Part shown: positions 1-21,035 of the stretch, piece after piece | How the letters are laid out: every line of letters starts with the position of its first letter | Position numbering within the stretch: the stretch's first letter is position 1 | DNA from: Pagrus major | Lineage: Eukaryota > Chordata > Actinopteri > Spariformes > Sparidae | Direction of reading: 5' to 3' | Length of the DNA stretch: 64,000 bases | Assembly (NCBI RefSeq): GCF_040436345.1 | Contig: NC_133238.1 | Span: forward strand, 13,602,147-13,666,146 | The notes under the pieces: model-generated | What the model saw: only the letters and a program-made list of their open reading frames with translations | Told to the model about the DNA's origin: nothing | Databases searched by the model: none | Translations under genes and position numbers: made by a program

Positions 1-759
1 TCCTATGTTGAGGAATTGGAAGACCTGTTGGGCTCGGCATATGTGAAAGACATCCAAAGAGGGCCTGAGGAGGGAACTAGACGGGAGACGGTGGAAGCCC
101 AGGTCCATTTTGAAGCAAGCGATCTAGAGGAAGCAGATGATCTGGAGGAGGCCATTGATCCGGTGGACGCCATTGGTGACTTTTGGAATGGGACATCCAC
201 CCCATCAAGACAACCCCAAAAGGTTACAAGACATGTCAATTCTGACCGCAAGATGGCTGAATGGGACCTCATGGTTCATAAGAAATGGCTGATAATAGGG
301 GATTCCAATCTCTCCAGGATTCCTGCTTATGACATTCCGAATCTGCAGATTGAGAGTTATCCGGGAGCCAGTTTCCGCCACGCAGAGGCCTTGATGGTTA
401 AAGCAGGGAGTGTCACGACAGTAGAGAAAGTAGTATTGGCGTTTGGACTGAACCATCGGAGCCAGAAGGCGAGAGAGACGTCCATCAAGCAGCTTCAAGG
501 GGCAGTTAGAGCGGCTAGGAAGTCGTTCCCCTATGCTGAAGTTTGGGTTCCCCAGATTAACTTTTCTCACACCTTGCCGGAGGAAGAGAAACAGACATTG
601 TTGACTCTGAATCAGTACATTGCAAAGAACTTACCGGGGACTCCTGAATTAGAAGAGGAGTACTTTGCGACAGAGAGGGACAATGTCCATTGGACGGGAG
701 ACACAGCAAGAGCCATGCTGGACTATTGGTCAACCCTGTTAAACTTGACCGCCCTCTGA
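1..759 (+). CDS. PLE copy A: SGNH-hydrolase-like protein (5' end outside window)
   Basis: The frame is open from base 1, so the 5' end is missing. After an acidic N-terminal stretch (about residues 1-80), the C-terminal half reads as an SGNH/GDSL hydrolase-like domain. Block I is LIIGDSNLSRIP (GDS at 298-306), block II is YPGASFRHAE, block III is LAFGLNHR, and the terminal block is RDNVHWTGD with DxxH spacing (about 679-690). Together these give candidate Ser, Gly, Asn and Asp/His positions. The same domain precedes the RT in the second copy (12399-14027), so it belongs to the element and is not a chance neighbour. Esterase-like domains are known as accessory proteins of several retroelements; activity here is inferred. 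The last 70 nt overlap the RT frame in the -1 register. Confidence 0.8.
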   Translation, partial: SYVEELEDLLGSAYVKDIQRGPEEGTRRETVEAQVHFEASDLEEADDLEEAIDPVDAIGDFWNGTSTPSRQPQKVTRHVNSDRKMAEWDLMVHKKWLIIGDSNLSRIPAYDIPNLQIESYPGASFRHAEALMVKAGSVTTVEKVVLAFGLNHRSQKARETSIKQLQGAVRAARKSFPYAEVWVPQINFSHTLPEEEKQTLLTLNQYIAKNLPGTPELEEEYFATERDNVHWTGDTARAMLDYWSTLLNLTAL

Positions 760-2972
760 GTTCTATACGGGAGGGGGTTGAGGGACGAAAGTCCTCATCC
801 GCAAAGAACGTTTTAGTTCTAGCCAAAGACTTTTTTCTTTCGGAACCACAACAAACACTTTTGAGTAAAGGATTAACATTTATACCATCTTTAGATATAG
901 GCAGGAATCAAAAAATCCAACTTCAATTTGATTTACAGACTTATCATAGAAAAGTCCAATTGGCATCCTATTTTAGGAATTCAAACCAAAATGAGATACC
1001 TCGTTTTACAGAAGCTTCCAATTGGATACCTCCAATAGAGAAAATTCCAGAGGAAATTATTAATTTAATGGAAGAGGATAGATTACTTTTGGATGAACAT
1101 TACAGACCAATTAGGGAAAAGGGTAATTTGACAGTAGAAGAAGTTAAGGCACTTAGAGATTTACAGAATTCGAAACATATTGTAATTAAGCCTGCTGATA
1201 AGGGAGCAACAGTTGTTATATTAAGTAGGGAGCAATATGTATTGGAGGTACAAAGACAATTGAGGGATACAGTGTACTATAAAAAATTAGATAAACCAAT
1301 TTATTTGGATACTATTCCATTAGTTGATGATATTTTAAAGACATTAAAAAAGAAGAAATTCATTAATGAAAAACAGAGGAAATATCTAAAAGGGAATTCA
1401 CAACCCAGGGAAAGGAGATTTTATATTCTTCCAAAGATACACAAGGATCCGAAGAGTTGGACGGTTCCTTTTGAGGTGCCCGCTGGACGTCCAATAGTCT
1501 CCGATTGTGGTAGCGAGACGTATTACACAGCGGAATTCTTGGATTATTATTTGAATCCACTGTCAAATAGACATCCTGCCTATATCAAGGATACATATCA
1601 TTTTATTGAGTTAGTTAAGAGTTTAAGGATCCCGCCCAATTCATATTTTTTTTCTATGGATGTGGCAAGTTTGTATACAAATATTGATATTCCAAGTGGG
1701 ATAGAGGCAGTTAGAAAATGTTTTGCTAAATATCCCGACCCCAAACGGCCAGATGTAGAGTTACTGCAGTTGTTAGAAATTAATCTAACTAGAAATGACT
1801 TTGTTTTCAATGGTGAATATTATTTACAAGTTAAGGGTACGGCTATGGGAAAACGTTTTGCCCCGGCCTACGCCAATATTTTCATGGCCAATTGGGAGGA
1901 AGAGGTGTTTCAAAAATGCCACAAGAAACCCTTTTACTATTTACGTTATTTAGATGACATTTGGGGTATATGGACGGGTTCCCAAGTGGAATTTCAAGAA
2001 TTTGTTAATATTTTAAACTCTCATGATCCTTCGATTCAACTTAAGGCGGAAATTGACAAACAATCCATTGATTTTTTGGACACTACAGTGTATAAAGGAC
2101 AAGATTTTCAGGAAACACAAAAATTGGATATAAAAGTATTCTTTAAAACAACTGATACACACGCTTTACTTTTTAGAACTAGTTTTCATCCACCACATAC
2201 ATTTAGGGGTATTGTAAAATCTCAAATTCTTAGATTCAAGAAAATCTGTACACGCGAAGAGACCTTTAAGGAAGCTGTCCTTATTCTTTTCAAAGCTCTG
2301 CGTGAGAGAGGTTACACAAGGTCGTTCTTAAGACAGTGTTTTAAAACCTTCCAGAGTAGAAAAGAAAGGGAGGATGGGAAACTAATTCCATTAATTACTT
2401 CCTTTTCGACCAGCAGTATCATTTTAAATAGGAAATTTAAATCTAATTTTGAAAAGCATATTAGTAACTCAGGAGTTATCCCAGAGTCTAGGGTAATTTC
2501 CGCCTATAGAAGGAATAAAAACTTGCGGGATCATTTGGTGAGAGCCAAATTGCCGTCATTACAAGTTCAGAAGCCCCAATTATTGGAGGCGCAGTTTACA
2601 AAACTACAGTTCATACGTAGCAGTAAAGACAAAAAAATTGTTAGGATTCAACAGAGTTTTAGTCCCCGATCCACAAATTGTGTTTATGTTTTAATTTGTG
2701 CCAAATGTGGTATTAAATATGTGGGGGAGACTAAAAACTCATTATCTACACGTATGTATCAACATCGATACAATATTAGAAATAGACGAGAAGTGGAAAC
2801 ACCATTAGTTCAACATTTTTTGATCCACGGTTTGGACTCTGTAAGGATAGCTGGACTTCAAGGGAATACTAATTGGACAGACTTTGAGCGAAAAAAGATT
2901 GAACGATATTGGATTTACCTATTGGGTACAAGAGAACCATTTGGATTAAATTTGACATATACACCAAATTGA
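690..2972 (+). CDS. PLE copy A: reverse transcriptase with C-terminal GIY-YIG endonuclease
   Basis: The frame is about 740-760 codons, uninterrupted to TGA. RT motifs appear in order: KPADKGATVV (finger), FYILPKIHKDP, FFSMDVASLYTNID (motif A), KGTAMGKRFAPAYANIF (motif B), RYLDDIWGIW (motif C, catalytic DD near residue 420) and FLDTTVY. The C-terminus (about 2675-2970) carries VYVLICAKCGIKYVGETKN, the GIY-YIG nuclease core with an embedded CxxC as in PLE endonucleases, then RMYQHRYNIR. This is a Penelope-like element of the endonuclease-bearing type, resembling the Neptune group; the clade is inferred. There is no ATG near the start: the frame opens at a TTG (690) inside the SGNH frame. Expression therefore probably needs frameshifting, reinitiation or a non-ATG start. 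The frame is intact, so the copy may be young. Confidence 0.9.
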   Translation: MDGRHSKSHAGLLVNPVKLDRPLSSIREGVEGRKSSSAKNVLVLAKDFFLSEPQQTLLSKGLTFIPSLDIGRNQKIQLQFDLQTYHRKVQLASYFRNSNQNEIPRFTEASNWIPPIEKIPEEIINLMEEDRLLLDEHYRPIREKGNLTVEEVKALRDLQNSKHIVIKPADKGATVVILSREQYVLEVQRQLRDTVYYKKLDKPIYLDTIPLVDDILKTLKKKKFINEKQRKYLKGNSQPRERRFYILPKIHKDPKSWTVPFEVPAGRPIVSDCGSETYYTAEFLDYYLNPLSNRHPAYIKDTYHFIELVKSLRIPPNSYFFSMDVASLYTNIDIPSGIEAVRKCFAKYPDPKRPDVELLQLLEINLTRNDFVFNGEYYLQVKGTAMGKRFAPAYANIFMANWEEEVFQKCHKKPFYYLRYLDDIWGIWTGSQVEFQEFVNILNSHDPSIQLKAEIDKQSIDFLDTTVYKGQDFQETQKLDIKVFFKTTDTHALLFRTSFHPPHTFRGIVKSQILRFKKICTREETFKEAVLILFKALRERGYTRSFLRQCFKTFQSRKEREDGKLIPLITSFSTSSIILNRKFKSNFEKHISNSGVIPESRVISAYRRNKNLRDHLVRAKLPSLQVQKPQLLEAQFTKLQFIRSSKDKKIVRIQQSFSPRSTNCVYVLICAKCGIKYVGETKNSLSTRMYQHRYNIRNRREVETPLVQHFLIHGLDSVRIAGLQGNTNWTDFERKKIERYWIYLLGTREPFGLNLTYTPN

Positions 2973-2995
2973 ATTTCTGATTTTCAACCATTCAC

Positions 2996-3240
2996 CCTAA
3001 TCTTAACCCAATTTATCACTCCCTTCCCCTTGCCTAACCCTAACTACTCTCCCTTCCCCTTGCCTAACCCTAACCACTCTCCCTTCCCTAACCCTAACCA
3101 CTTCCCTTCCCCTAACCCTAACCCTAACCCCTTCCCTAACCCTAACCCTAACCACTTCCCTTTCCCCAACCCTAACCCTTTCCCCCTTCCCTAACCCTAA
3201 CCACTTCCCCTTCCCTAACCCTAACCACTCCTCTTTCCCA
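2996..3240. repeat. Degenerate telomere-like CCCTAACC repeats behind PLE copy A
   Basis: Runs of CCCTAACCCTAACC alternate with CACTTCCCTTCCC spacers, starting about 25 nt after the RT stop codon. The C-rich telomere strand lies in the sense orientation of the element. A shorter tract also follows the RT of copy C (19385-19405), so the association is recurrent. Confidence 0.85.
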
Positions 3241-3626
3241 ATTCCTATAAGATGTAAGGGATTAATTAATACATTAATTCATAATATTAAAAACATAATT
3301 AATAAATACAATAAATATAATTTCTTTACTACAATTAATAATCCTACTTATTATACATAGTTTTAAAATTTTAAACACATAGGGGAATGGTTGACAAGGG
3401 AATTTATATTTGCCACAAAAATATACAACAATTAAAACAATACTTACCTTAAATAAATTATAACAATTAATATTAAATACTTACCTTTAATTAATTACAA
3501 CAATTCATAAATATAAATATACTTACCTTTAAAAAAACCAATTTATAATATACTTACCTTCTTTAGACCTAAAAAAACAATTCACAGTTAAGCTTAACTA
3601 AAAAATTATACAAGACAAACAGAGGG
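3241..3626. other. AT-rich spacer with short repeats upstream of module 1
   Basis: No gene is visible. The stretch is very AT-rich and contains four imperfect repeats of about 30-42 bp, each beginning TACTTACCTT (about 3446, 3478, 3520 and 3551). Comparable AT-rich DNA precedes the other two TATA/ribozyme modules (4920-5095 and 6900-7180), so it looks like part of the repeated PLE terminal unit. Confidence 0.55.
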
Positions 3627-3634
3627 TATAAAAA
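3627..3634 (+). promoter_or_regulatory. TATA box of PLE module 1
   Basis: TATAAAAA in the context GGGTATAAAAAGGG. It lies 150 nt upstream of the predicted hammerhead cleavage site. The same arrangement recurs at 5098 and 7209, which makes a Pol II core promoter likely. The start site would fall near 3655-3660. Confidence 0.7.
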
Positions 3635-3733
3635 GGGAAGAGCTTCAGCAGGAGCTCATTACTCACCTGAACTCCGAGCTGAGCACAGGTTTTCCAGCTG
3701 TCCGAGAAAATAGAGGAAAAGTATTAGTTATTT

Positions 3734-3787
3734 GTGTGTCATTGGCCTGAAGAAGACCCGGAGAGGGTCGAAACGTTGCCGACACAC
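3734..3787 (+). ncRNA. Hammerhead ribozyme 1 (type I, minimal stem III)
   Basis: Core CTGAAGA (3747-3753) fits CUGANGA. Stem II is GACCC (3755-3759) with GGGTC (3765-3769) around loop GGAGA, followed by GAAA (3770-3773). Stem I is formed by GTGTGTC (3734-3740) with GACACAC (3781-3787), plus GGC (3744-3746) with GCC (3778-3780), leaving an internal ATT bulge. Stem III is only the palindrome ACGT, as described for PLE hammerheads, which need dimerisation. Predicted cleavage is after U3777 (GUU). It sits in the presumed 5' UTR between the TATA box and the frame at 3873. Confidence 0.87.
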
Positions 3788-3872
3788 CTTCCTTATTTGT
3801 TTAAATTAATATTTTTTACAATTTCATAGATTTTATTATTTTTTTCTAAAAATACGTAGTTGGTCACTTACC

Positions 3873-4157
3873 ATGGCTGACTACGTAGATGATGGATGGA
3901 CCCTGGTCCAACGGGGTGGTCGACGCCGGCCGGCGCGCCAACCGTATGAGGAGGAGAGAGGAGGGTGGATGGCGAGAGCAGCCCCCGTTTCCAACCGGAG
4001 ACGGGATGATTTTCCGGTCCCCAACCAGAGATGGGATCAGTTCCCCGTCCCCAACCGGAGACGGGATCAGTTCCCCGCCCCTAACCCTAACCCTAACCCC
4101 CTAACCCTAACCCTAACCCTAACCCTAAGTCCCAGCCCCCAGATGGGGAGGGGATAG
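3873..4157 (+). CDS. 5' fragment of a PLE reading frame (DDGWTLVQ start), invaded by telomere repeats
   Basis: ATG is followed by ADYVDDGWTLVQRGGRRRP, matching the start at 7594 (MPHQDDGWTTVQYGG). This marks it as the beginning of the protein encoded downstream of each ribozyme. Residues about 35-70 are a 3-fold repeat built on FPVPNRRRDQ. The frame then runs into CCCTAA repeats, read as PNPNPN and LTLTLT, and stops. It is probably a truncated 5' end of a tandem PLE copy. No known domain is seen. Confidence 0.5.
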   Translation: MADYVDDGWTLVQRGGRRRPARQPYEEERGGWMARAAPVSNRRRDDFPVPNQRWDQFPVPNRRRDQFPAPNPNPNPLTLTLTLTLSPSPQMGRG

Positions 4158-4282
4158 ATTCTCCTCCTCCGACAGGAGACAGGATTTTTCCCCCTCCCCT
4201 AACCCTAACCCTAACCCCCAACCCTAACCCCCCTAACCCTAACCCTAACCCCTAACCCTACCCCAACCCTAATCCTAACCTT
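4077..4282. repeat. Telomere-like CCCTAA repeats inside and after the fragmentary frame
   Basis: Two blocks (4077-4130 and 4193-4282) of CCCTAACCCTAA with small variants, separated by a non-repeat stretch that resembles the preceding coding repeat (CGACAGGAGACAGGATTTTTCC). The repeats thus interrupt element sequence and do not merely flank it. Confidence 0.85.
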
Positions 4283-5097
4283 TGTCTTCCTGTGCTTCTC
4301 CTTTCTTTCTGTTTTTCTTTTGGTTTTTCTTCCTTTTTCCTTTCTCCCTCCTTCTTCTTTTTTCTCCCCCCTTTCTCCCTCCCTTTTTGTATTATTTTCT
4401 TTGGTTAGTTTTAAACTAGATCCAGTTTACTTTCCTCTTGTCACTTGAACACAATATTACTTTTATACGATTGGATAGCGGTGGCCTCTACCTGAGACTC
4501 TTTTGCTTATTAGACTTTTTGTCAATTAGTTTTTCTTCCCTCCTTTTGTTTTCCAAAAAATCCTTTTAGCTTATAATTCGGTTTATTTGGGATTCATTTA
4601 TTCATTAATTTCTTTTTCCCCTTTTTCTTCTCCCTCCCTCATCTTGTTTACTAAAGAATAGTGAGTTTGTTTCCTTCCCTTAAAGTTAACTTACACATGA
4701 TATGACCTGTGCCCGTGCCGATGTAGTCCTCCTTTGTTTGGGGGTTCCTACTATTTCTTTTCCCTACCTAGCTCTACCCTAACCCTAACCCTAACCCCCT
4801 CACCCTAACCCCTAACCCTAACCCTACCCTAAGGATAAGTTAGTCGCCGGTTAATGGTAAAGGATGGAGGATAGGCTATGGAGAAGGGAAATGAAGAGGG
4901 AAAAGGAATATGGGAAATAAGGGTTAAGGACTAAGTTTATTTATACAATAAATATATAAATATAATAAATATATAAATATATAAAAATTAATAAATAAGT
5001 TAAAAACAACTACATTAAAAACAAGTAAGTTCATTGGAAGGGACAACACTAAGTTAAACATAACAATTTAAAAACAAGTAAGTTCATTAAGGGAGAG
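4283..5097. other. T-rich then AT-rich spacer with a short telomere-like block
   Basis: No coding frame is recognised. Positions 4283-4680 are pyrimidine-rich (TTCTTTTTCC tracts). Positions 4770-4836 contain CCCTAACCCTAACCCTAACC. Positions 4920-5090 are AT-rich and lead into the second TATA box. It is probably a decayed PLE terminal unit. Confidence 0.5.
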
Positions 5098-5105
5098 TAT
5101 AAAAG
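5098..5105 (+). promoter_or_regulatory. TATA box of PLE module 2
   Basis: TATAAAAG in the context GAGTATAAAAGGGAG, 142 nt upstream of the predicted cleavage site of hammerhead 2. Context and spacing match the other two modules. Confidence 0.7.
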
Positions 5106-5193
5106 GGAGAAAGACAAGCAGATCATTCAGTTTGGCGTTAGACTTCGGAGGAGCAACATCTCCCCAGCTAATTAGAAGAAGGGATACTTACCT

Positions 5194-5264
5194 GTATGTC
5201 GTGGCTTATGCCTGAAGAAGTCCAAGTAGGACGAAACGTCGCAAGCGCCACCTAGAGGACATAC
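5194..5264 (+). ncRNA. Hammerhead ribozyme 2 (type I, minimal stem III)
   Basis: Core CTGAAGA is at 5212-5218. Stem II is GTCC (5220-5223) with GGAC (5229-5232), loop AAGTA, then GAAA (5233-5236). Stem I has three parts: GTATGTC (5194-5200) with GACATAC (5258-5264), GTGGC (5201-5205) with GCCAC (5247-5251), and GC with GC next to the core. The palindrome ACGT forms the rudimentary stem III. Cleavage is predicted after C5240 (GUC). Helices differ in sequence from ribozymes 1 and 3 yet keep their pairing, which is compensatory support for function. Confidence 0.9.
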
Positions 5265-5498
5265 AGAAGAAAAACAATAAGGTTAACCAACTCAAGTAAG
5301 GGTGGGAATTTGAAAAACAACTAAAGCCAAACAATAAAAAACTAAAAAAATAGAAAAATAAATAACTATAAAAACACAAAATATTGTTCTAGCGGTATTA
5401 TACTTTCTATAAATTTTACTTTATGATAAATATATCTATCCTAGAAAAACTATAAATATTATTATATAAATACACCGCAATCAACCTAAATAAAGAAG

Positions 5499-6740
5499 AT
5501 GGGGATGGAGGAGTGGCCTGTCTGTAGGGTGGAGAGTGCACCTCTGGGACCACGCAAGTGGAGCCCAGTTGAGTCCCCTTACCTCACTTTTGGGGGGGTG
5601 CACCTGCCTCCCATCCCTCTGGCACCTTCCTGTCAAAAGATATTCAACAAAAACGGCGTGCACCCGGGTGCACTCCTGCTAAAACCTCTTATCCTACAGC
5701 TCCTACAGCTCTCAGCTACGGCCTGCAGCACAGGTGATGCAAGACCTGAGGAGACGGGCTACAGCACCTATGCTGCCTCGTCTGTCTGTCTTTGCCCCCC
5801 TGCACAGAGTGCCACACTTAGGTTTTGCCTGTGAAAGACTGCTACGTCCTGCAGCACGGGCGATGCTCCCAAACACTAACCCTGATTCCCATTTGACCTT
5901 TGACCTTAACCGGCCTCTGATCGGCTACCTCACTTTGCGTTGCCTCATTCTAACCGCTCTGTCTGTCTGCATGTCTTACTGCCTGCCTGCCTGCCTGTCT
6001 GTCTGTCTGCTGTCTCTCTGTATGTCTTTGCCCCCTCCTGTGGCGGCCCAGGAGCACTGCACAGAGCGACACACTTAGGTTTTGGCCGTGGAAAACCACT
6101 ACAACGAGCAGCACAGGCGATGCCTCAGCACTAGTGATGCTCCAAGTGGGCCAAAAGGGTCTTTTTGCCCTCAATCTGGCCATAAACATGACCAACCCTC
6201 CTTTAATTATGCCTAAACCTAACCAATCCGGCACTAACCATAACCAACCCTCCTTTAATAATGACTGTCTGCCTGCAAGTCAGTCTGTCTGTCTGTCTTA
6301 CTGCCTGCCTGCCTGTCTGTCTGTGTCAGTGTGTGAATTTGTTTCTTTTTGGAGGAACAGCTAATCACAGTTTATTTGCTCATGGTTCTTCAGCCCCTCT
6401 GCCATACTAAATTTTCAATCAATTGCACCTGCACGTTGTGATACCATTTAACAAAGAGAAAACATGCTACAGGATGTTACCAACATCATCTTTTCAAAAA
6501 GTTAACCTTTGCCCTTCAATGCTGGCACAACAGAAACACAGATAATGTGAAAATATCACACAAATCATCCAGAATTACCCCAGCAACCATGCCTACGGCT
6601 GCTGGCTACAGCCTGCAGCGCGTGCTGTGCCGCTATGGCCTGCGGCGCTTGTGGTGCCTGACTCCACACCTCCGGAAGGGGAGGTCGCACGGACTCGGGC
6701 CAAAAACGATGTGCACCCGGGTACACTCCTGCTAAAACCT
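5499..6740. other. Non-coding filler after module 2, with TGTCTGTC/TGCCTGCC tracts
   Basis: Only short open frames occur and none resembles a protein. At 5499 an ATG stands where the DDGWT frame starts in the other modules, but its product is not similar. Two stretches (about 5960-6030 and 6263-6330) are TGTC/TGCC-rich tracts. Phrases such as CACTTAGGTTTTG with flanking bases recur at about 5815 and 6073, showing internal duplication. Confidence 0.45.
5651..5696 (+). repeat. 46-bp direct repeat, left copy (partner 6704-6749)
   Basis: AAACGGCGTGCACCCGGG and the following bases through CTCTTATCCTA recur at 6704-6749 with about three differences. Two near-identical 46-bp copies therefore bracket about 1.0 kb. 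The right copy runs straight into CCCTAA repeats; the left does not. Confidence 0.8.
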
Positions 6741-6744
6741 CTTA

Positions 6745-6870
6745 TCCTAACCCTAACCCCTAACCCCTAACCCCTTCACTTCCCCTTCCCTAATCCTAAC
6801 CCCTCCCCATCCTCTAATCCTAACCCTAACCACTTCCCTCCTCTTTCCCTAAAATCTAACCCTAAGTCCT
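6745..6870. repeat. Telomere-like CCCTAA/CCCCTAACC block
   Basis: Degenerate CCTAACCCTAACCCC and TAATCCTAACCC runs mixed with CACTTCCCTTCC spacers, the same mixture as at 2996-3240. Together with the AT-rich stretch after it (6871-7208), it reproduces the order seen upstream of ribozyme 1. Confidence 0.8.
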
Positions 6871-7208
6871 TTTTTTCTTCTTTTTTTTACCCTAACTATC
6901 CTTCTTTCAAAAAATGTATATTTATTCCAAAACGGCCTAAATTACAATTAATTCTCCTAAAAAGTTAAATATAACAACTACTGACCTTAAAATATATAAA
7001 TTACAATATTGGCCTTTAAAAAAAATTCCATAAAAATAAATATATATAAATATTTTTTATTCTACCATTCATATTTATTATATAACAATAAAAAATACAA
7101 TTAATATTTATCTTTTAATACTAAAAAACAATTCTATCTACCTCCATTGGATATCTACCTGCAATTTTAAGATACGAAAGGGGCAGGACCAAACTTGGAG
7201 GAGGAGAG

Positions 7209-7216
7209 TATAAAAG
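7209..7216 (+). promoter_or_regulatory. TATA box of PLE module 3
   Basis: TATAAAAG in the context GAGTATAAAAGCAGG, 155 nt upstream of the predicted cleavage site of hammerhead 3 and about 385 nt upstream of the ATG at 7594. Confidence 0.7.
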
Positions 7217-7312
7217 CAGGAGCACGGCTCTCTCTCCTCATTCTGCCTCTGACTCTCAAGGAGAACACAAGCATCCTGGTAGTCTGCAAGGAATATATAG
7301 TCGTTTCATTTG

Positions 7313-7382
7313 GTGTGCTTTAATTTAGAATTCGCCTGAAGAAGACCTATTGGGTTGAAACGTTGCGGCTCATAGAGCACAC
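7313..7382 (+). ncRNA. Hammerhead ribozyme 3 (type I, minimal stem III)
   Basis: Core CTGAAGA is at 7336-7342. Stem II is GACC (7344-7347) with GGTT (7353-7356), including one G-U pair, then GAAA (7357-7360). Stem I is GTGTGCT (7313-7319) with AGCACAC (7376-7382), plus GC with GC beside the core and a larger internal loop. Stem III is the ACGT palindrome and cleavage is predicted after U7364. Stem II is weaker than in ribozymes 1 and 2, so activity may be lower. Confidence 0.82.
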
Positions 7383-7593
7383 AATTTTTATTTAGACTAA
7401 TTTCATTTAAAATCATTTCATACAAAAATATAATTTCTATAAAAACATTTTCATTTCATATATATCAGACATAATAAATAAATAAATAAATAAAAAAACT
7501 ATAAATTATTATATAAATACACCACTACAAAGGAATAAACAAACCACTACATAGGAATAAACAACAAACTGAAAGGAATAAACAAGCAGCATC

Positions 7594-7791
7594 ATGCCTC
7601 ATCAGGATGATGGCTGGACCACCGTACAGTACGGAGGCAAACATCCCCGTGACCGTACTGATGAGAGACCACGCCACTGGGATAGTGGTGGTAGAGGCCC
7701 TGGGTGGATGGACAGCGCACCTCCTTTCCCCCGCGGAGGCGGGAGAAGGGGCCTTTTCCACATTCCTAACCTTCCCCTGCTTAATGCCTAA
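7594..7791 (+). CDS. 5' fragment of PLE reading frame, module 3 (DDGWTTVQ start)
   Basis: ATG begins MPHQDDGWTTVQYGGKHP, aligned with the start at 3873 and placed 212 nt after ribozyme 3. The product is short, basic and Gly/Pro/Arg-rich, and ends at a TAA just after CCTAACCCTAA-like sequence. It is probably the first coding piece of copy C. Whether it was joined to the SGNH frame by splicing or was simply broken by decay cannot be told. Confidence 0.45.
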   Translation: MPHQDDGWTTVQYGGKHPRDRTDERPRHWDSGGRGPGWMDSAPPFPRGGGRRGLFHIPNLPLLNA

Positions 7792-8121
7792 CCCTAAAAC
7801 AATTGGTCAATAACAAATTGTTAGGAATATTTGTGAAATTTGGCTTTGGTCTGCCATTTACATTTGCAAAGTTTGGATAGCTCTCTTTCCCAATTTGTCC
7901 TCCCCCCTCCCCCTCCCGTCTTCTAATCTTCCTTCTTCTTTTCTCCTCTAATATGGTTCATGATAGCAAGTGGGAGGTGGCCTGGGGACTAACTTGCGCC
8001 GGCCAATACCTTGCCTCTGTCTCCTACTCAAATTATGTGTCGTTGGTCAACATAGGGGAGGCTCTGTGTATATTTCTACTTCACCTAACCCTAACCCCCT
8101 AACCCAGTTGCAGCACAACAT

Positions 8122-8790: not shown

Positions 8791-9220
8791 TAATGTGGAT
8801 GTGCCTTGCCTACACGGAGCTGCAGTAAAGTTTTATCTACAACGGTGTATGCTTGTGTACCTGCCTTTTAACTGTTTACGTTGTCTCACCACAAAACATC
8901 TTATCAACAATTGATTTAAAACTCACCTGTCCTGAACACCAGGGGCCTCATGTACTAAGACTTGCGTGGATTTCCTACTGAAACATGGCGTACGCTAGAA
9001 TCCAGAAACTGTCGTACGCACAAAAAAAATCAGATGTATCAAAGTGTGCGTACGCATGGATCCAAGCACTTTTCCTTTGTACATCCCAATCAACGTAGAA
9101 TTGAGCGCACATGTAGAAGTGCTAAACCCCTCCCTGTCCACGCCCCCATTTAAATATGCAAATCAATTTAAATAGGGCCTGCACCGGGGATTCCCCTCTC
9201 TGCACCGCCAGATTTACACC

Positions 9221-9413
9221 ATGAGTAAAGGGAAGAAGCGCAACTTCACCGAGTCTGAGCTCGAAACGTTATTAAATGAAGTCGAGACACGAAGATCTGT
9301 ATTATTTGGGCCTCTCGTCAGGGATAAACACCAAAAAAAAGAAATGTGAGTGGGAGCTTGTGTGTGAGGCAGTGAACGCTGTGGGGTCGGAGCAGCGCAC
9401 ACTCACTGGAAAA
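9221..9413 (+). pseudogene. Harbinger Myb/SANT-like DNA-binding protein remnant
   Basis: ATG at 9221 starts MSKGKKRNFTESELETLL, typical of the Myb/SANT-like partner protein of Harbinger elements. The frame is then lost. It continues one frame over as LSSGINTKKKKCEWELVCEA and NAVGSEQRTLTGKK. A single frameshift near 9310 explains this. The remainder dissolves into AAT/AT repeats, so the gene is truncated as well as frameshifted. Confidence 0.75.
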
Positions 9414-9459
9414 AAAATAAATAATAATAATAATAATATATATATATATATATATATAT

Positions 9460-9497
<38 letters not shown>

Positions 9498-9797: not shown

Positions 9798-10250
9798 TTA
9801 ATCACCGGGAAGCCACCCATCGCGCACCGTGCCAGCCTCCAGCCTGTTACCAACCATGCTATTGGTAAGAATGAAGGAGTCATGCGTTGAACCAGGCCAC
9901 CATGCCACGATGTTGGTGAGCTGCATTTGCGCATCACATATTATTTGAACATCAATTGAATGAAAATGTTTCCTGTTGACACAAACAAATTTACGGACAC
10001 CGGCTCTTGCTGCAAATTGCGCTTTAATGTTGGCCTGTTCAACAGCATTGGGAATTTGATGTACCTGGATGACATTCTTACGATCCCAATTCAGCTCCAG
10101 TAACACTGGCCTCGGCAACCTAAAACGACTCTTGAGCCAGTTGTCGTCATTTGCCAACAGATCTTCCCGTTCTCTAAACACCCTCTCACGTCTGACATTA
10201 CCATTTGCGATGTCTTCTAACAAGGCCAAGGCTGCCATTGTTAATGCCAT
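9798..10250 (-). pseudogene. Harbinger transposase (HARBI1/DDE_4-like), truncated
   Basis: The frame encodes ENDDNWLKSRFRLPRP-like N-terminal sequence (ANDDNWLKSRFRLPRP here), then VCVNRKHFHSIDVQIICDA and WWPGSTHDSFILTNS, followed by GWLPGD. This is the order of the DDE_4 family: first catalytic Asp in the SIDVQ/CDA region and the HD motif in GSTHDS. Between LNWDRKN and the IQVHQIPNAVEQ segment a large part of the normal protein is missing, and the C-terminal acidic residue is absent. The copy is therefore not autonomous. Confidence 0.85.
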
Positions 10251-10570
10251 TTTTTCATCACTTTGCGCATGCTTTTATATCCATCCATATGATTGCAAAC
10301 ACGTGTGTGTTAATTGTCCATTAATGTGTCTCTGATGTGCACATTACTCTGAGGACTAATTGTTTTCACATAATTAACAGTTTCCCAGCATCACCTCAAC
10401 GTGTCGCCAAAGGAACAATAGCTGTAGAAACGTGCGTACGCCAGCCATGAAGCTGGCGTGGGGCACCGCACATTTCCACGGTCATTTCACTTTTGATACA
10501 TCTGACCGTTGGCGTGGAAAATGACGTACGCCACGTTTTTGTGCGTACGCAACATTGATACATGAGGCCC

Positions 10571-11075: not shown

Positions 11076-11108
<33 letters not shown>

Positions 11109-12398: not shown

Positions 12399-14027
12399 AT
12401 GACACAGACTTTGTCGACCTTAATAAAGCCAGCAGTGCCCATTGATAGCACAATGACACTAATTGAAGCTAATGCTAAGAAGTTGGCTTGCACCACTATT
12501 GTAGGAGCCGTGTTTTATTTATAAACACCTATACCACCAAGGAAAGGACTAGTCACTACAACTATGTTCATCTTCAGACATGATTACACTGACATGATTG
12601 ACAAAGAAATTCAGACCCTGATTGGCCTACCAAACCCTGACTGGAATCAGCCCTTTGAGATAGCCAAAAGCTGGGCCAGACGTAATCTAGGCAGACGACT
12701 GCTATCTGACACAGTGGACCGTGCGGAGGCCGTCCTCGTTGCCAGAATGACACACAGGGATCAATTTGACGCCCCTGAACCAACAGATGTTGAGACAGTG
12801 CCCCCACCCACTGACCAAGCACCTGACTCAGACGAGATTAACACGCTCGTGACTCAGACTCGCACCACAACACGGGGGAGGGAGACACTGACTCCTTTGA
12901 CTACAGTTGCAGCGGCAACCCCACAAGTAAACAGACAGACTGTCATCACGGCTGAGATTCACCCACCACCACCCACGACAGAGTTGCGACAACAAACAAC
13001 GATCTCCAAACCAACAACCAGAAGACCAGCACCTTCGCTCGTCTCCAGGAAAGCTGCATCCACAATGACTGACATCAGAGGAGGTTGGTGACTGGACCTA
13101 CAGGTGGAGCAGGAGGGCATCTCACCCACCCCTCCTCCGCGTCCACATATTGACAGAGACATCCAGCAGACCGCATCGAAGGAGCAGAGGATGAAACGCA
13201 CCCCGAGCTTCAGAGCTAGCAACCAGGAGAGACCCAACTCTCTCCAACCTGCTCCGCCGCCCCCCACCACATCAACGCCAGGAGGGTCGGTTACAATTGT
13301 GGACCTCAGGGAAACTGAGCTTTCCACTCTGCGGAGCAGCCCCCAGACTGCAGGCCGCAGTGCTCCAGGAGGGAAAGGCGATCTATCAGCAACAAGGATG
13401 GTCACCACCAAAATTCATGGTACAGAACAAAGACAGATTGATTTCACTACATCCACCACATCCACAACACCACTCAGACCAACACGCAGACCTATCAAAC
13501 ACATTAACACAACCAACAAGATGAAGGACTGGAACCTCAGCATCAGACAAAAATGACTCATTGTTGGTGACTCGAATGTGGCCAGATTCCCACCTTTTCA
13601 AATACACGACCTACAGATAGACAGTTTTCCTGGTGCCACCTTTAGACACGCAGAGGCAATATTAAGTAAGAACACTGTGGACACCTCTGTTGAGATTGTT
13701 GTACTGTCTTTCGGCCTGAATAACAGGGGCCAGAAAACCCGCCAGACTACTGTCAAACAAATGCAGGCGGCCATGAGAGTGGCGAAACAGAAATTCACAC
13801 AGGCCATGATTTGGGTCCCACTAATTAACTTCTCCAGGTCCCTCCCACACCAGGAGCAGACTAACCTGCACGATCTCAACATGTACATCATAAATAACTA
13901 TGACTTTATTCCAGAACTTCCCAGGACCCAGTTCTCCACGGAGAGGGACACCATACACTGGACCCACAACACGGCCTCCCGCATGCTGCAACATTGGGCC
14001 CAGCATCTAAAATGGAGGTGCCCGTGA
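12399..14027 (+). pseudogene. PLE copy C: SGNH-hydrolase-like protein, broken by three in-frame stops
   Basis: One frame runs from ATG 12399 (MTQTLSTLIKPAVP) to TGA 14025, interrupted only by TAA 12522, TGA 13089 and TGA 13554. The C-terminal part matches copy A block by block: LIVGDSNVARFPPF, FPGATFRHAEAI, LSFGLNNRGQK, INFSRSLP and ERDTIHWTHNTA. The TGA at 13554 stands where copy A has TGG (KKWLIIGD), so it is a point mutation. Upstream of the domain is a long Thr/Pro/Arg-rich linker (about 12780-13540). The last 16 nt overlap ATG 14012 of the RT frame in the -1 register, as in copy A. Confidence 0.8.
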
Positions 14028-14652
14028 ACCTGCCCACACAGGAGGGCAGAACAAAGTTAACAAAACACAAGTTAACTCAGGAGGAATTCACTCTATTAAA
14101 CAGAGGTTTGAATTTTATTCCTACTAAGGGTAGTAATAAAAATATCAATGAACAAACGGGATATGACTTACAACAATATCATAGGAAACTAAAACTAGCG
14201 GCGTATTTTGAACATAAAAAGGACTCTGATCCTCCACCATTTACTCCAAGATCAGAGTGGTCTCCCCCAGATGCACAGCTGCCACCTGAAATTCTCAAAA
14301 TCATCAAAACTAACATCCACTACTTTCATCAGAAATTCAAAATTTGCAGAGTATAACCAAATCTGAATAAAAACAAAGTGGAAGCTCTCCAATCACTACG
14401 ACAAAATAGGAATATTATTATAAAACCTGCGGATAAGGGCAGTGCAGCTGTCATCATGGACAGAGATGAATATTTGTGGGAAGGATACAGACAGTTGAGT
14501 CACCCAAATAATTATACTAAATTGGACAAACCTATTTACTTGCAAACCATCCCCCTGGTGGCAAAAATTGTGGGCAAATTACATGAAAAAAAGTTTATTA
14601 AATTTAAACAGAAGACCCACTTAATGGGCAAACAAGAACCTAGGCCAAGATT

Positions 14653-17600
14653 ATTAGGGCCCGAGCAGGGAACCTGCGAGGTCCCTATTGTAATTGTAGT
14701 GATTATTAGGGCCCGAGCAGGGAACCTGCGAGGACCCTATTGTTTTTGTAGTGATTATTATTATTTTTTGTTATTTTTCTTCTTCCCAAATGATCGCATT
14801 TTTCACTGCCTGAACATACCCCAAAACTCATCAAACTTGGAATATATGTCACACCTGGTGAAAAATTTTATAATCTGTTGTCGTTGTGAATTTTCATCAC
14901 TAGGTGGCGCTATAATCAAGGAAAGTGTGTTTTGGTTAATAACTCCCACATACTTTGTCGCACATTCAAAAACCTTATATCCACGCATTCAGTGAATTGT
15001 GCTGAATCTCCTGATATAGGCCACGCCCATTTCCGCCTACCGTTTTTTTTCGCTAGCTCGCGAAATGTTGAAAACCTACTTTTTCGAACTCCTCCCAGGC
15101 AATTTCACCAATTTGCACCAAACTTTGCCCACAGCATCTGGGGATGCTCCTGGCAAAAAGTTATTAAAAGAATTTTGATATGCCAAAGAATACTCAAGTT
15201 ATTAAATAACAACTTCCTGCAGATTTCGTTCCAAACAGGAAGTGTTGCATATCTCCACATTGGTGTGTCCGAATGACGTGAAACTCAGGATACTACTTCC
15301 CCATGAACCCCTAAGGCTCTGTGCAAAATCTTGGCCCATGACAACTAGGTGGCGCTATTTAAATTGAAGTATTTTATATCTCGACAGTGGTTGGTCGGAT
15401 TAACACACAACTTGGTACACTCATTGCCACTGGCCACCTGAGGAGAACTGATGAAGGTGTTACCGATCTGACACTAGATGGCGCTCTGGTGGCAGTTTCA
15501 TTTTATAATTGGCACTGTGCCCACACCATAACACTTATGGATATGAAACTGATTGGGGTGGTATAGACTGGCCCCTGTAACTCACACACCAAAAATCACC
15601 AGCAGGTGGCGCTATTATCAAGAAAAAACATTTTCTGCTAATTACTCCCACATAATATGGTGCACATTGTTAAACATTGTATCTACATGTTCCCTGAATA
15701 CAGCCGAACAGTGTGATGTAGGCCACGCCCACGTTCGCACTGAATTTCCATTTGCAAATTCGCCAAATGTCGCAAACCTACTTTTTCGAACTCCTCCCAG
15801 GCAATTTTTCCAATTTGCACCAAACTTTGCACGCAGCATCTCTGGACCCTCTTGACAAAAAGTTATTAAAAGAAATGTGCTAGTCCACAGAACGGCCAAA
15901 ATATAAAACAACAATTTCCTGCGCATTGTGGTCAAACAGACATTCTTGTGTATCTTGATGAAATACAGTCCGATGAACACAAAACTTTTGCCAATTGTGT
16001 TTCATGGCACGATGAGCATTTCTACAAAATTTCGTGCAAATCGACCAATAGGTGGTGCTTTTATTGCTAAATGACGAAATTACAGCTTCACTGCCTTCAC
16101 TTTCATTTCCTCAATGGAAGTTGTTGCAAGTACAAGCCCCGACAGCAGCATGTCACGACAGCAGCATGTCACGACGGCAGCATGTCACGACGGCAGCATG
16201 CCGCGACAGCAGCACGCCCCGACCCGCGTGGACTGCGAGGGCCCGTTCATCGCTGCTTGCAGCTTTAATTATTATTATTTTTTTTTTTTTTTTTCTTCTG
16301 ACGAAATGATCGCATTTTTCACTGCCTGAACATACCCCAAAACTCATCAAACTTGGAATATAGATCAGACCTGGCGAAAAATTTTATAATCTGTTGTCAT
16401 TGTGAATTTCCACCACTAGGTGGCGCTATAATCAAGGAAAGTGTGTTTTGGCTAATAACTCCCGCATACTTTGTCGCACATTCAAAAACCTTATATCCAC
16501 GCGTTCAGTGATTTGTGCTGAATCTCCTGATATAGGCCACGCCCATTTCCGCCTACCGTTTTTTTTCGCTAGCTGGCGAAATGTCGAAAACCTACTTTTT
16601 CGAACTCCTCCCAGGCAATTTCACCGATTTGCACGAAACTTTGCACACAGCATCTGTGGACCCTTCTGACAAAAAGTTATTAAAAGAATTTTGATACACC
16701 AAAGAATATTCAAGTTATTAAATAACAACTTCCTGTGGAATCGGGTCACAACAGGAAGTGCTGCATATCTCCACATTGGTGCGTCCAAATGACGTGAAAC
16801 TCAGGATACTACTTCCCCATGAGCCCCTAAGGCTCTGTGCAAAATCTTGGCCCATGACCAATAGGTGGCGCTATTTAAATTGAAGTATTTTATATCTCGA
16901 CATCGGTTGGTCGGATTAACACAAAACTTGGTACACTGATTGCCAATGTCCTCCTGAGGTTAACTGATGAAGGTGTTACCGATCTGACACTAGGTGGCGC
17001 TCTGGTGGCAGTTTCATTTTATAATTGGCACTGTGCCCACACCATAACACTTATGGATATGAAACTGATTGGGGTGGTATAGACTGGCCCCTGTAACTCA
17101 CACACCAAAAATGACCAGCAGGTGGCGCTATTATCAAGAAAAAACGTTTTTTGCTAATTACTCCCACATAATATGGTGCACATTGTTAAACATTATGTCT
17201 ATATGTTCCCTGAATACAGCGGAACAGTGTGAGTAGGCCACGCCCACGTTCGCACTGAATTTCCATTTGCAAATTCGCCAAATGTCGCAAACCTACTTTT
17301 TCGAACTCCTCCCAGGAAATTTTTCCAATTTGCACCAAACTTTGCACGCAGCATCTCTGGACCCTCCTGACAAAAAGTTATTAAAAGAAATGTGCTAGTC
17401 CACAGAACGCCCAAAATATACAACAACAATTTCCTGCGCATTGTGGTCAAACAGACATTCTTGTGTATCTTGATGAAATACAGTCCGATGAACACAAAAC
17501 TTTTGGCAATTGTGTTCCATGGCACGATGAGCATTTCTACAAAATTTCGTGCAAATCGACCAATAGGTGGCGCTTTTATTGCTAAATGACGAAATGACAG

Positions 17601-17766
17601 CTTCACTGCCTTCACTTTCATTTCCTCAATGGAAGTTGTTGCAAGTACAAGCCCCGACAGCAGCATGTCACGACGGCAGCATGTAACGACGGCAGCATGC
17701 CGCGACGGCAGCACGCCCCGACCCGCGTGGACTGCGAGGGCCCGTTCATCGCTGCTTGCAGCTTTA
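14653..17766. mobile_element. Non-coding interspersed element, two tandem ~1.5-kb units, inserted in PLE RT
   Basis: The insertion begins ATTAGGGCCCGAGCAGGG and ends CTGCTTGCAGCTTTA. Removing it restores the RT reading phase, and ATT on both sides (14650-14652 and 17767-17769) fits a 3-bp target duplication. Inside, two units share most of their length: GATCGCATTTTTCACTGCC occurs at 14790 and 16307, a period of about 1517. The header GGGCCCGAGCAGGG occurs twice at the left (14656 and 14707). Each unit ends in a CGACGGCAGCATG minisatellite and GAGGGCCCGTTCATCGCTGC. I recognise this as a common fish repeat style but cannot name its class; no transposase is present. Confidence 0.75.
16136..16225. 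repeat. CACGACGGCAGCATGT minisatellite (second set at 17651-17725)
   Basis: About five copies of a 15-16-bp unit, AGCATGTCACGACGGC with variants, sit near the 3' end of each large tandem unit. They are an internal variable tract of the inserted element, not a separate insertion. Confidence 0.75.
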
Positions 17767-19343
17767 ATTTTATATGCTTCCTAAAATTCATAAAGATCCT
17801 GACAAATGGAGCAAACCATATGAAATCCCACCGGGAAGGCTGATCGTCTCTGAATGCAGCAGCGAGACACATCATACGGCTGAGTACTTTGATTATTATT
17901 TAAATCCATTATCTATTAAACATGAAAGCTATATTAAGGACACCTATGACTTTGTGGAGAAAGTTAAAAAACTGCACGTACCTCTAAATTATTTCCTATT
18001 TACGGTGGATATTGATAGCTTGTATACTAATATTGATATTGCAGAGGGTATTCAGACAATAAAAAACATTTTTCTCAAAAATCCTGACTCTAAAAGGCCA
18101 GAAAAAAAGCTCTTAAAATTCTTAGATATCAATCTGACTCACAATGATTTCGAATTCAATGGAGAATATTTTCTCCAGATTAAAGGCACTGCGATGGGAA
18201 AGACATTTGCCCCCGCATATGCGAATATTTTTATGGCTGAGTGGGAACACTCAGCCTTACAAACCTGTTCCAAAAAACCCCTTTATTATTTCAGATTTCT
18301 TGATGACATCTGGGGAGTCTGGCCCCACAGCAGAACAGATTTTGATACCTTTTTGCATACACTTAATAATCATAATCCATCAATCAAATTCTAAGCTACG
18401 ATTGACTCTAATTCAGTTGACTTTTGGGACACCTCCACTTATAAAAGTACAGACTTTGATAAAACATATCAATTGGACATCAACATTTTCTTTAAGGAGA
18501 CAGACACACATGCCCTGCTCTTTAAAACGAGCTATCACCCAAAGCATACATATGCTGGTTTAGTGAAATCACAATTATTGAGATTCCATAGAGTGTGTAC
18601 CAGAAAAGAGGATTTCAAACAAGCTACAAAAATATTTTCTCCACTTTGGTCACTAGGGGGTACTCTCGCTCCTTTCTTAGGAAATCCTTTAAGACTTTCC
18701 AGCAGGTGAAGCCCATTGAGGTCTCCTCTTTGCTCCCAGTAATAACAACATACTCTCCATCTAAACTAATTAGAGAGATTAAAAGCAACTTTTTGGATAA
18801 TTTAAAAGGTACTCAGCTAATACAAGATCATAAAATCATTGCTGCATACAGGAAAAATAGGAATCTAAAGGAACATTTAGTTCACGCAAAAATAAAACCA
18901 TTAGGAAACCCTCAGATCCAGACGACACGGGGAATTTTTTCAGCACTGCATCTGGGTGCGCAATCCACACAACCTAAATGTTTTTAAAACACAAACGGAT
19001 GGACATGTCAGGTCCAAAAACTGTGTCTATCTATTTTTTTGCCAGGAGTGCGGTGTTCAATATGTTGGTGAAACAAAAAACACAATACTAACAAGGTTCA
19101 CTCAACATAGATATAATATCTTAAGACAACGAGAGACACATACTCTTGTTGTACAACATTTTATCCAAGATAACTGGTCGAATCTCAGAGCCACACTCTT
19201 AGAATCCAATCCATGGTGGTCAACAGCACAGAGGAAGAGATGTGAAAGAATGTGGATAAGTTAGGAACATCCTTCAGGTCTGAATGAAAAATGTTATTAT
19301 GAAAAATAACTGTGTCATATCAGAGATGATGGCCTGTGCATTA

Positions 19344-19370
19344 AATTTCACCGCCTTTGGCGGTGAAATT
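19344..19370. other. Perfect 12-bp hairpin 3' of PLE copy C
   Basis: AATTTCACCGCC, loop TTT, GGCGGTGAAATT. It lies 80 nt after the truncated RT frame and 15 nt before a CCTAACCCTAACCC tract. It could be a 3' UTR structure recognised by the PLE reverse transcriptase or the end of another element. Copy A has no equivalent hairpin before its telomere-like tract. Confidence 0.6.
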
Positions 19371-21035
19371 CAAGTTTTTGTCTCACCTAACCCTAACCCT
19401 AGCCCTCTGAGCAGTCGGAAAACATATCTTTTTTTCTCGCTCACACCCCGGGAACACTAAAGACCGGGCACCTCTGGGGTGGCACTCATCCCTATACCCC
19501 GTCTGTAAAAAGGAGAATTAGCTCTGGTTGAGTTCTGTGAGATGCTAATATACAGGTGCAGCTCTACAATGTTTAAGTTAAGTCACTAACGACACTGTTG
19601 ACTGTGTCGTCTTTATAATGATGCACTTTCACAGTCTAATATTTCATTAGTTTGCTGACAAACTGAGACTTTGTCACAATGAAAATGTATCCTTTATAAT
19701 CAAAGATGCAAAACAAAATACACCAAATCAATATATTCTGCTGGGATACATCTTTTCCTCTTTATATTGTCAATCCACATCATGTAAATGTATCCTCCTG
19801 TCAGAAACGTACCTGGGTGGACAGAATAGCTCTGAACATTGGCCACCAGATGGAGCCAAATGGATGCCGTCTACTGTAATGGCTGCATTCGTCGATTTCT
19901 TTAACAGTCTCCTCCAGGGTTACTCATTCTTTCTCTTTTACAATTTATTCTGATTTAGTTTTAATAATCTAAAAATTTTTCCCGTCTAGTTTGTACACTT
20001 CAACAAAAATCTTCTGTATTTGGTAAATTGTCTTTCTGAGCGAACCTGCAGTTTATCTTCAGTTGTTTTTTCTATGACATGATTAAAATTCACAGCCATG
20101 TTGGATGAAAAGTGGAAGAATCTTTTTCATTTGAAGGAAATGAAAGAGACAAACATTTGTTCATGACTGCTGTAAATAAAGTCAACACTTTCACCTGATT
20201 ATCAGTCTCATGTTACAACAAAGTGGACAACATGAAATATCTGAATGCTTCCTCGCAGTAAACATGTTAAACTTTCCACCGTCTCAGCTTCACTTTTCAA
20301 CACTTCAGACATAATTCATGACGTTGTTGAGTTTGTTCTGCACTGTGAAGACTCTCCTTTAAATACAGCTGCAGTGAGGACTTCCTGTTTGGTTTAAAAA
20401 TCTAACACAGTAGAGGAAAGTAAAAGACAACAGAAGAAGGCAGAAGACCGTAGAGGACAGTAGAAAGCATCAGGCGAAAGTGACATTACAGGAAATAAGA
20501 GGCGACAGGCTCTCAGGTGACTCTCAGGTGTGGTTTATGTCGGCGGTTAGTCTGATAGAAAACAGTCGGTAGCTTCAGTTCAGACAGGATTTTACATTCA
20601 GAGCCTTCAGACAAGAAAACATCACAGTCACATCAGCTGATCAGGTCACATGACCTCCTGTTTTCATCATGGCTGCTCTGATCAATCTTTAAATCTGTCA
20701 TGAGCTTGCAGCTGCTGCACTACATTCCCCACAATGCACCCTAACCATTACAGCCCACAGAAGGCTGCACACCTTTTCTTTTAGTGCCACCTGTTTCACA
20801 TCACAAGTTCACGCTGTATGACATCACACCTTCACGAAGTATGACATCACACCTTCAGCTGTGGTCTCATCATGACATTAAAAGAACATGTGTGCAATCT
20901 GAACGCAGCCAATCAGCCGTCATCTCTCAGCAGCTCAGTCATGTGACAGATCTTCTGCTGTGCAAAGGATTGTGGGTCCGAAGAGCCAGAGAAACATGCT
21001 GGCATCATACTGACAAGTAGACCCCCATGTGTTTT
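19371..21035. other. Intergenic, no gene recognised
   Basis: A short CCTAACCCTAACCCTAGCCC tract (19385-19405) is followed by about 1.6 kb of mostly unique AT-rich DNA. A small duplication, CATCACACCTTCA, occurs at 20823 and 20844. I see no conserved coding frame. Confidence 0.5.

Follow-up and report, generated by a model that had tools for sequence, protein, structure and literature searches.

Why would a retroelement lying inside a fish chromosome run into telomere-like repeats? The question is raised by a 64,000-nucleotide stretch of the Pagrus major genome (the window; C24:13,602,147-13,666,146, contig NC_133238.1, in an assembly of 785.9 Mb and 25 contigs), in which two copies of a Penelope-like element (PLE) were identified from the open reading frame (ORF) list and by homology. 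Each displays an ORF1 with a C-terminal SGNH domain, followed by an ORF2 with reverse transcriptase (RT) and GIY-YIG domains. A preliminary description of this DNA had placed the SGNH block directly upstream of the PLE RT/GIY-YIG frame in both copies, and this layout stands: 1-759 and 648-2972 in copy A, 13557-14027 with RT pieces at 14072-14650 and 17768-19285 in copy B. The element is quite probably an endonuclease-bearing, Neptune-like PLE adapted to chromosome ends, whose reverse transcription would start internally, primed by the telomeric G-strand. Copy A and the tails that follow it are laid out as listed here.

1-759, + strand: C-terminal part of copy A ORF1, with an SGNH hydrolase-like domain (S102, G122, N151 and H230 of the frame; ORF list, conserved residues, predicted fold)
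648-2972, + strand: copy A ORF2, open, with Penelope-like RT (YLDD) and GIY-YIG endonuclease, in the -1 frame relative to ORF1 (ORF list, Pfam, alignment)
738-744, + strand: G UUA AAC in phase with ORF1, where ORF1 and ORF2 overlap; candidate -1 frameshift heptamer (deduced from sequence)
2973-3240, + strand: 3' untranslated region (UTR) containing a CCCTAA-bearing minisatellite (repeat scan)
3241-3625, + strand: A+T-rich stretch ahead of the TATA box, also in the C6 (L014) and C11 (L008) copies
3627-3640, + strand: TATA-box-like TATAAAAAGGGAAG
3733-3793, + strand: hammerhead-like motif 1, core 3747-3773 (descriptor search)
3873-4086, + strand: truncated ORF1 N-terminus (DDGWTLVQRGG..), ATG at 3873, the tail of subfamily A (homology)
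4073-4086, + strand: telomere-complementary site CCCCGCCCCTAACC, where tail A changes to CCCTAA repeats
4079-4128, + strand: telomere-like CCCTAA tract 3' of tail A (repeat scan)
4129-4204, + strand: second tail, of subfamily B, 5'-truncated, with a CCCTAA tract before it and CCCCTAACC at its end
4197-4280, + strand: telomere-like CCCTAA tract 3' of tail B (repeat scan)

Copy A is seen without its 5' part, its frame 1-759 being open on the 5' side and the 6 kb upstream of position 1 reading as N. The CCCTAA tract at 4079 begins within the ORF1 fragment, at the very point where the fragment is truncated. Partial copies consist of the TATA box, the hammerhead and the first ~200 nt of ORF1, break at a single ORF1 position, its Pro-Asn codons, and show CCCTAA repeats beyond. 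The preliminary description had proposed that SGNH and RT frames should co-occur, and CCCTAA tracts lie at element borders, in further copies. Both checks were run: further genomic copies, as well as a contig from a second fish (L052), contain the two frames together, and CCCTAA tracts recur at the 3' borders of copies outside the window. The CCCTAA blocks of the window are themselves real by repeat scan, and alone they prove little. As stand-alone evidence they were discarded, since such tracts are common genome-wide (overlapping matches to (CCCTAA)6 number 2882 on the forward strand and 2468 on the reverse) and GGGTTA-bearing minisatellites occur at 28-46 kb of the window too; the weight of the CCCTAA evidence comes from the other copies. 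The GGGTTAG-unit minisatellites (28295-28745, 30492-30609 and 44922-46175) lie on the strand opposite to the PLE tracts.

The position of the break was addressed with an unselected test, by counting exact copies of an ORF1 marker located 141-184 nt upstream of the junction. Its 37 copies comprise 22 that stop at site A, nine that stop at site B, five intact ones and one left unassigned (C6:39,722,333). Five of the nine site B tails are known only to read CCCCTAACC; the other four read on into repeats. The 22-mer GATCAGTTCCCCGCCCCTAACC, which ends in CCCCTAACC, occurs at 35 places, 31 of which continue into CTAACC, three are intact and one does neither. Those 31 places have 0, 1, 2 or 3 extra letters before CTAACC in 17, 5, 7 and 2 cases, respectively. 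Tails retrieved by position, at chromosome ends and in the interior, are joined at the site in 11 cases out of 11, one of them (L041) via a long C run. Up to the junction, tails match intact ORF1 exactly or nearly so, and CCCTAA repeats thereafter. The number of Cs following the join varies, a sign of separate events. By an alignment cut, 22 tails fall into 20 flank groups, a slight overcount given that L045 and L046 represent one flank, shifted; two further rows were repeats of the window's own tails. Growth of CCCTAA by slippage inside an intact ORF1 was considered and rejected, as no resumption of ORF1 was found in the sequence read past the tract.

Tails might also form without reverse transcription, if breaks in subtelomeric arrays were healed by telomerase or microhomology repair at CCCTAACC and recombination then spread the products. 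The junction holds 8-9 nt of telomere identity, which would also draw microhomology repair or telomerase, and near-identical blocks recur (the C17/C6 flanks, repeated pairs on C1). Healing of this kind predicts scattered breakpoints, whereas 31 of the 37 exact marker copies stop at one site and no breakpoint was found elsewhere in ORF1, the unassigned copy apart. Moreover, the piece that is kept, a pseudo-long terminal repeat (pseudo-LTR) with the start of ORF1, is like the product of another PLE whose RT starts internally. Such an origin is regarded as unlikely.

At the breakpoint, intact ORF1 reads CCCCTAACCGGCC in L038, TTCCTAACCGGCC in L032 and CCCCTTACCGGCC in L014. The site is complementary to telomeric DNA: some intact copies, like the second fish, carry a perfect CCCTAACC, and others are one base off. 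In both L052 and L032, CCTAACC occurs once in the ~4 kb of ORF1 and ORF2, at the junction site. Two intact subfamily B copies read CCCCTTACC, and at 14 places the end of the subfamily B leader is followed by CCCCTAACC; this is suggestive of the A in subfamily B tails being a base supplied by a telomeric primer.

The location of the copies forms the second line of evidence. A genome search with ORF2 yielded at least 66 matches (58 of 524 candidates scored), merged to 55 loci, of which 52 were used, those on contigs whose length was then known. The omitted loci are one on C22 and two on C21, a contig of 33.7 Mb in which they lie ~3.4 Mb from an end. Loci within 110 kb of a contig end number 27 of the 52, in a zone that makes up 0.67% of the sequence. 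The sense strand points inward in 25 of these 27, and the remaining 25 loci divide 13/12, without bias. A search with the ORF1 leader returned 41 matches, 28 of them within 50 kb of an end and 26 of these 28 directed inward. With one count per chromosome end (within 150 kb, all searches pooled), 15 ends are inward, C17L is opposite and C18R is mixed, giving a sign-test p of 0.0005 without C18R and 0.002 with C18R counted against. This inward orientation is a prediction of priming by the telomeric G-strand. One of the C17L tails has the same flank as the C6:39.7 Mb copy (L045, L046), which suggests that it belongs to a moved block.

An ordinary dispersed Neptune-like element might instead accumulate passively in subtelomeres, spared there by selection and recombination, next to CCCTAA repeats that are merely abundant. 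(CCCTAA)6 is indeed plentiful in the genome, the window holds unrelated minisatellites bearing TTAGGG, and internal positions account for about half of the ORF2 loci. This explanation predicts neither a single orientation (25 of 27 inward) nor a junction into telomeric repeats fixed to the nucleotide, and is considered very improbable. As a separate observation, a tandem array of a distant relative (ORF2 identity 43%) lies at C20:28107257-28156224 on the minus strand, inward near the contig end, with a spacing of 7.4-8.1 kb; in the unit that was read, TTAGGG repeats occur within ~1 kb downstream of ORF2.

Tandem or partly tandem copies with pseudo-LTRs and tails are found in an array on C5 (5774-bp units), in a C6 copy placed between leader tails, and in L052 (5441-bp units). 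The C6 contig start (L014) displays, in order, a leader tail, CCCTAA, an A+T-rich stretch, TATA, hammerhead, ORF1, ORF2, a CCCTAA-bearing 3' UTR, again an A+T-rich stretch, TATA and hammerhead, and finally a leader tail and CCCTAA. Its two tails share one flank and were counted as one event. Among the copies examined, the CCCTAA-bearing minisatellite 3' of ORF2 is also present in the near-identical L002, L003, L004, L007 and L008.

Epulopiscium is a bacterium that lives in surgeonfish. L052 (LJHE01000041.1) is an 11-kb contig filed under this name in a collection of bacterial genomes; its named proteins match the PLE family, and it is taken as DNA of the fish host. It contains two tandem units with ORF1, ORF2 (59% identical) and a hammerhead, and begins with CCCTAA repeats. 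Its ORF1 site reads CGCCCTAACCAG, perfect over CCCTAACC. Fish-type retroelement DNA is in this way filed within a bacterial assembly, and AN641_04885 and AN641_04890 from this contig bear the bacterial name in protein databases. Likewise, a Saprospiraceae contig from a metagenome-assembled genome (L053, CAKZLT010000421.1) codes for a piece of Penelope-like ORF2, perhaps through contamination with animal DNA. In the ORF1 protein, the site corresponds to residues P54 and N55, each of which is conserved in at least 90% of 52 chosen aligned sequences.

Several observations weigh against a telomere-primed element. Pro-Asn is not universal: among the best 120 of the 177 proteins found with a full ORF1 query (P0012), 89 fit the motif pattern (Pro-Asn in 74, a different residue in 15), and the other 31 fall outside the pattern, several with the N-terminus missing. 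The adjacent prolines are conserved as well, and a Pro-rich motif may be kept for reasons of the protein. DNA evidence from other species amounts to one contig. At the nucleotide level, the 12 places with at most one mismatch to the intact site read CCCCTAACC (3), CCACTAACC (4, all in one C5 array), CCCCTTACC (2) and CCCCTATCC (3), and CCTAACC is absent from ORF1 and ORF2 of L014. The two intact subfamily B copies have identical search scores and are perhaps one copy, mutated and duplicated. Internal copies (the window, C9, C10, C18 and C22) bear the identical junction, so that either insertion is not confined to ends or these copies were rearranged later. As for the ends, C17L and part of C18R are oriented the wrong way, 11 of the 27 end loci belong to tandem arrays on C5 (4) and C20 (7), and copy counts are inflated by segmental duplication. 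The contigs do not start in pure telomeric arrays (C6 opens inside a tail), and several end stretches are N. Finally, the scored ORF2 candidates were a part of the whole (58 of 524), and the end mapping covers the PLE alone.

With these points taken into account, internal priming by telomeric DNA could proceed as follows. A pseudo-LTR promoter would give rise to an RNA running through ORF1 (Arg-rich N-terminus, helical domain, SGNH domain) and ORF2 (RT, GIY-YIG) into the next pseudo-LTR. Reverse transcription would start not at the 3' end of this RNA but in the downstream ORF1 leader, at the Pro-Asn-Arg/Gln codons, whose RNA is CCCUAACC or close to that sequence. There, the 3' end of a telomeric G-strand, (TTAGGG)n, or that of a nicked internal TTAGGG array, would pair with the site and prime the complementary DNA. 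The resulting insertion would end in 5'-TATA-hammerhead-ORF1 leader-CCCTAA-3', with its sense strand directed inward along the chromosome; where the 5' end is truncated, further telomeric repeats could cap it. A possible role of the GIY-YIG endonuclease would be to open TTAGGG arrays away from the ends, which would explain why copies such as those of the window are internal.

This model combines an internal start and tail of Poseidon type with telomeric repeats after the hammerhead, as in Terminons. The Poseidon element PAc of Anolis carolinensis possesses a pseudo-LTR, a hammerhead at the ORF start, an RT start 111-118 nt into the ORF, and "tails"; its start site, however, is unrelated to its target (PMC11167929). 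The site of the fish element matches the telomere and, in the copy from the window, is reached after ~200 nt of ORF1. Telomerase uses an RNA template complementary to the telomere, with the G-strand as primer. In contrast, the presumed template of the fish element lies in coding sequence, and the whole element would be copied.

Terminon/Athena elements of bdelloid rotifers are, in the excerpts of PMC6431247 available, attached to telomeres and carry at their 3' end a hammerhead with reverse-complement telomeric repeats after it; they also have a GDSL/SGNH ORF, head-to-tail arrays and 5' truncation by telomeric repeats. The preliminary description had proposed a vertebrate PLE family with the same toolkit. 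The retained endonuclease and the telomere-like DNA at the borders withstood analysis; the SGNH ORF turned out to be no special tie to Terminons, as an esterase had already been mentioned in 2017 for fish Neptune-like PLEs in the accessible part of PMC5408684. That the element is a true Terminon in a vertebrate, which the shared 3' end and GDSL/SGNH ORF would favor, is barely credible. The same excerpts of PMC6431247 describe Terminons as endonuclease-deficient, up to 40 kb long and rich in accessory ORFs, with repeats immediately after the hammerhead. The fish units measure 5.4-5.8 kb (5441-5774 bp), contain two ORFs and a conserved GIY-YIG, and leave 306-406 nt between the hammerhead core and the repeats in the tails measured. 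In its telomeric location and its 3' reverse-complement telomeric repeats past the hammerhead, the element works like a Terminon, without being a member of the group.

Fish Neptune-like PLEs resemble it in their described parts, with an RT and C-terminal GIY-YIG, Cys residues before the GIY-YIG core and an esterase in fish members; telomere association and a telomere-complementary start site are not mentioned in the available portions of their descriptions (PMC5408684, PMC3846280). The Neptune-like assignment is suggested by Cys residues and by the published esterase remark rather than by a tree, and published elements were compared by description.

The conserved Cys residues accompany the hallmark domain pair of PLEs, RT and C-terminal GIY-YIG found in one ORF. 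In copy A, GIY-YIG scores above the Pfam cut-off and RVT_1 (E 1e-5) just below it. Both domains contain residues that are invariant in an alignment of 20 ORF2s. Directly ahead of the GIY-YIG core, C678 is conserved in at least 90% of them and C684 and C687 are invariant, the Neptune Cys motif being available as a partial published description. In copy A and the relatives compared, the reading frame of ORF2 is -1 relative to that of ORF1, and the ORF1/ORF2 overlap contains no ATG. An in-phase G UUA AAC occurs at 738-744 of the window and ~4666-4672 of L014, and U UUA AAC at ~3119-3125 of L052. The heptamer encodes an invariant Leu-Asn of ORF1 and represents a candidate -1 frameshift signal, by which ORF2 may be expressed. 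A frameshift as the sole reading of this border was rejected, as many homologous ORF2 models start with Met there.

ORF1 was explored by protein searches. The joined copy A proteins retrieved 511 proteins, the best 120 of which were examined, as were the best 120 of the 177 retrieved with P0012. Two complete ORF1 proteins, P0012 and P0105, end in an SGNH domain and in that region share 68% and 57% identity, respectively, with copy A. The sequence of P0012 starts with ..DDWTLVQRGGRRR.., and homology to such full proteins identifies the DDGWT frame (ATG 3873) as the N-terminus of the same ORF1 as the SGNH domain. Among the best 120 of the 177, the named matches are from ray-finned fishes (Scophthalmus, Channa, Sarotherodon, Larimichthys, Pampus, Epinephelus, Hemibagrus, Xyrichtys and Oreochromis), with the exception of one entry named for the bacterium Epulonipiscioides, accounted for by the presumed fish-host contig L052, and one cluster also bearing the name Mustela. 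Based on the exact GDSN motif, an SGNH block precedes the RT motif in a single chain in 4 of 346 proteins (P0032, P0239, P0249 from Tachysurus and P0257 from Esox); the gene model of P0010 (Metynnis) has the two parts in reversed order.

Pfam detected no SGNH family in copy A and in copy B gave Lipase_GDSL_2 only at E 0.01, below the cut-off; a sequence search of solved structures returned no match for the domain. Gly122, Asn151 and His230 are nevertheless invariant, and Ser102 at least 90% conserved, across 60 ORF1 rows. The AlphaFold2 model of the domain has a predicted local distance difference test score (pLDDT) of at least 90 for 150 of 252 residues, and its Foldseek matches are PAF-AH, OatA and the ORF1 esterase of the zebrafish ZfL2-1 (4c1b), the best being 1bwq (E 2.3e-7). 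From its conserved catalytic residues and predicted fold, the ORF1 C-terminus is assigned as an SGNH domain, probably with esterase activity. ZfL2-1 shares the SGNH fold and belongs to another class of retroelement; texim, with the same fold, is a gene family carried by Helitrons according to the available part of PMC4021074. Residues 128-260 (P0012 numbering) are confidently predicted as an all-helical domain conserved in the family; Foldseek with the whole ORF1 gave 50 matches, nearly all of them SGNH-type enzymes, and no clue to the helical domain.

The preliminary description had reported three hammerheads with TATA boxes, and these were recovered with cores starting at 3747, 5212 and 7336, each with TATAAA 114-127 nt upstream. 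The descriptor finds three in the window, against a mean of 0.12 and a maximum of one per window in 60 shuffles. The motifs are of type I with a minimal stem III; CUGANGA, stem II, GAAA and stem I are present. Stems I and II vary on both sides among the 16 distinct motifs, for example GTGTGTC/GACACAC, GTATGTC/GACATAC and GTGTGCC/GGCACAC, or GACCC/GGGTC, GACCG/CGGTC and GTCC/GGAC. An extra A stands ahead of stem II in all 19 matches. Rfam reports no hammerhead at the gathering level in the window, nor at E ≤ 10 in 1-21000, which weighs against the call, and this silence may be due to the extra A. Judged from sequence, the motifs may be active ribozymes.

The remaining features of the window lie downstream of the tails.

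5195-5262, + strand: hammerhead-like motif 2, core 5212-5236, TATA 114 nt upstream, degenerate sequence after it
7312-7380, + strand: hammerhead-like motif 3, core 7336-7360, TATA 127 nt upstream
7594-7771, + strand: ORF1-like N-terminus of another subfamily (MPHQDDGWTTVQYGG..), up to TTCCTAACC and degenerate beyond (read by eye)
12525-14027, + strand: decayed ORF1 of copy B, SGNH domain at 13557-14027 (ORF list, homology)
14012-14650, + strand: 5' part of copy B ORF2, RT piece 14072-14650 (ORF list, homology)
14650-17767, + strand: ~3.1-kb insert interrupting copy B ORF2, with a 52-nt direct repeat at its left border
17768-19285, + strand: 3' part of copy B ORF2, with RT, a remnant GIY-YIG and several stops
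19386-19402, + strand: short CCTAACCCTAACCCTAG tract ~100 nt beyond copy B

Copy B (12525-19285) is an older relative of copy A, with the same gene order and several stops. Its insert appears by eye to consist of two similar ~1.5-kb halves, each closing in 16-nt repeats such as CGACAGCAGCATGTCA. A DDE_Tnp_4 transposase fragment is identified by Pfam in the interval separating the PLE copies, at 9798-10274 on the minus strand. A transfer RNA scan and a search of viral contigs returned nothing of use.

Tx1_Acar of Anolis is a long interspersed nuclear element, not a PLE. It is listed among telomere-associated retrotransposons of vertebrates in the accessible part of PMC10088271. Listings of open-licence PMC papers showed no account of a vertebrate PLE that homes to telomeres, and the chromosome-end behavior of the fish PLE appears to be new, the esterase of fish Neptune-like PLEs being already published. 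The balance tips slightly toward the ORF1 Pro-Asn-Arg/Gln codons being kept because base pairing between RNA CCCUAACC and telomeric DNA primes synthesis, that is, toward a telomerase-like template inside coding sequence. The element would then be a telomere-homing, subtelomere-building one in ray-finned fishes and a bridge between ordinary PLEs and telomerase. This provides a concrete template-primer model that is testable in vitro, and a telomere-primed PLE could explain some of the interstitial telomeric repeats and subtelomeric blocks of the genome.

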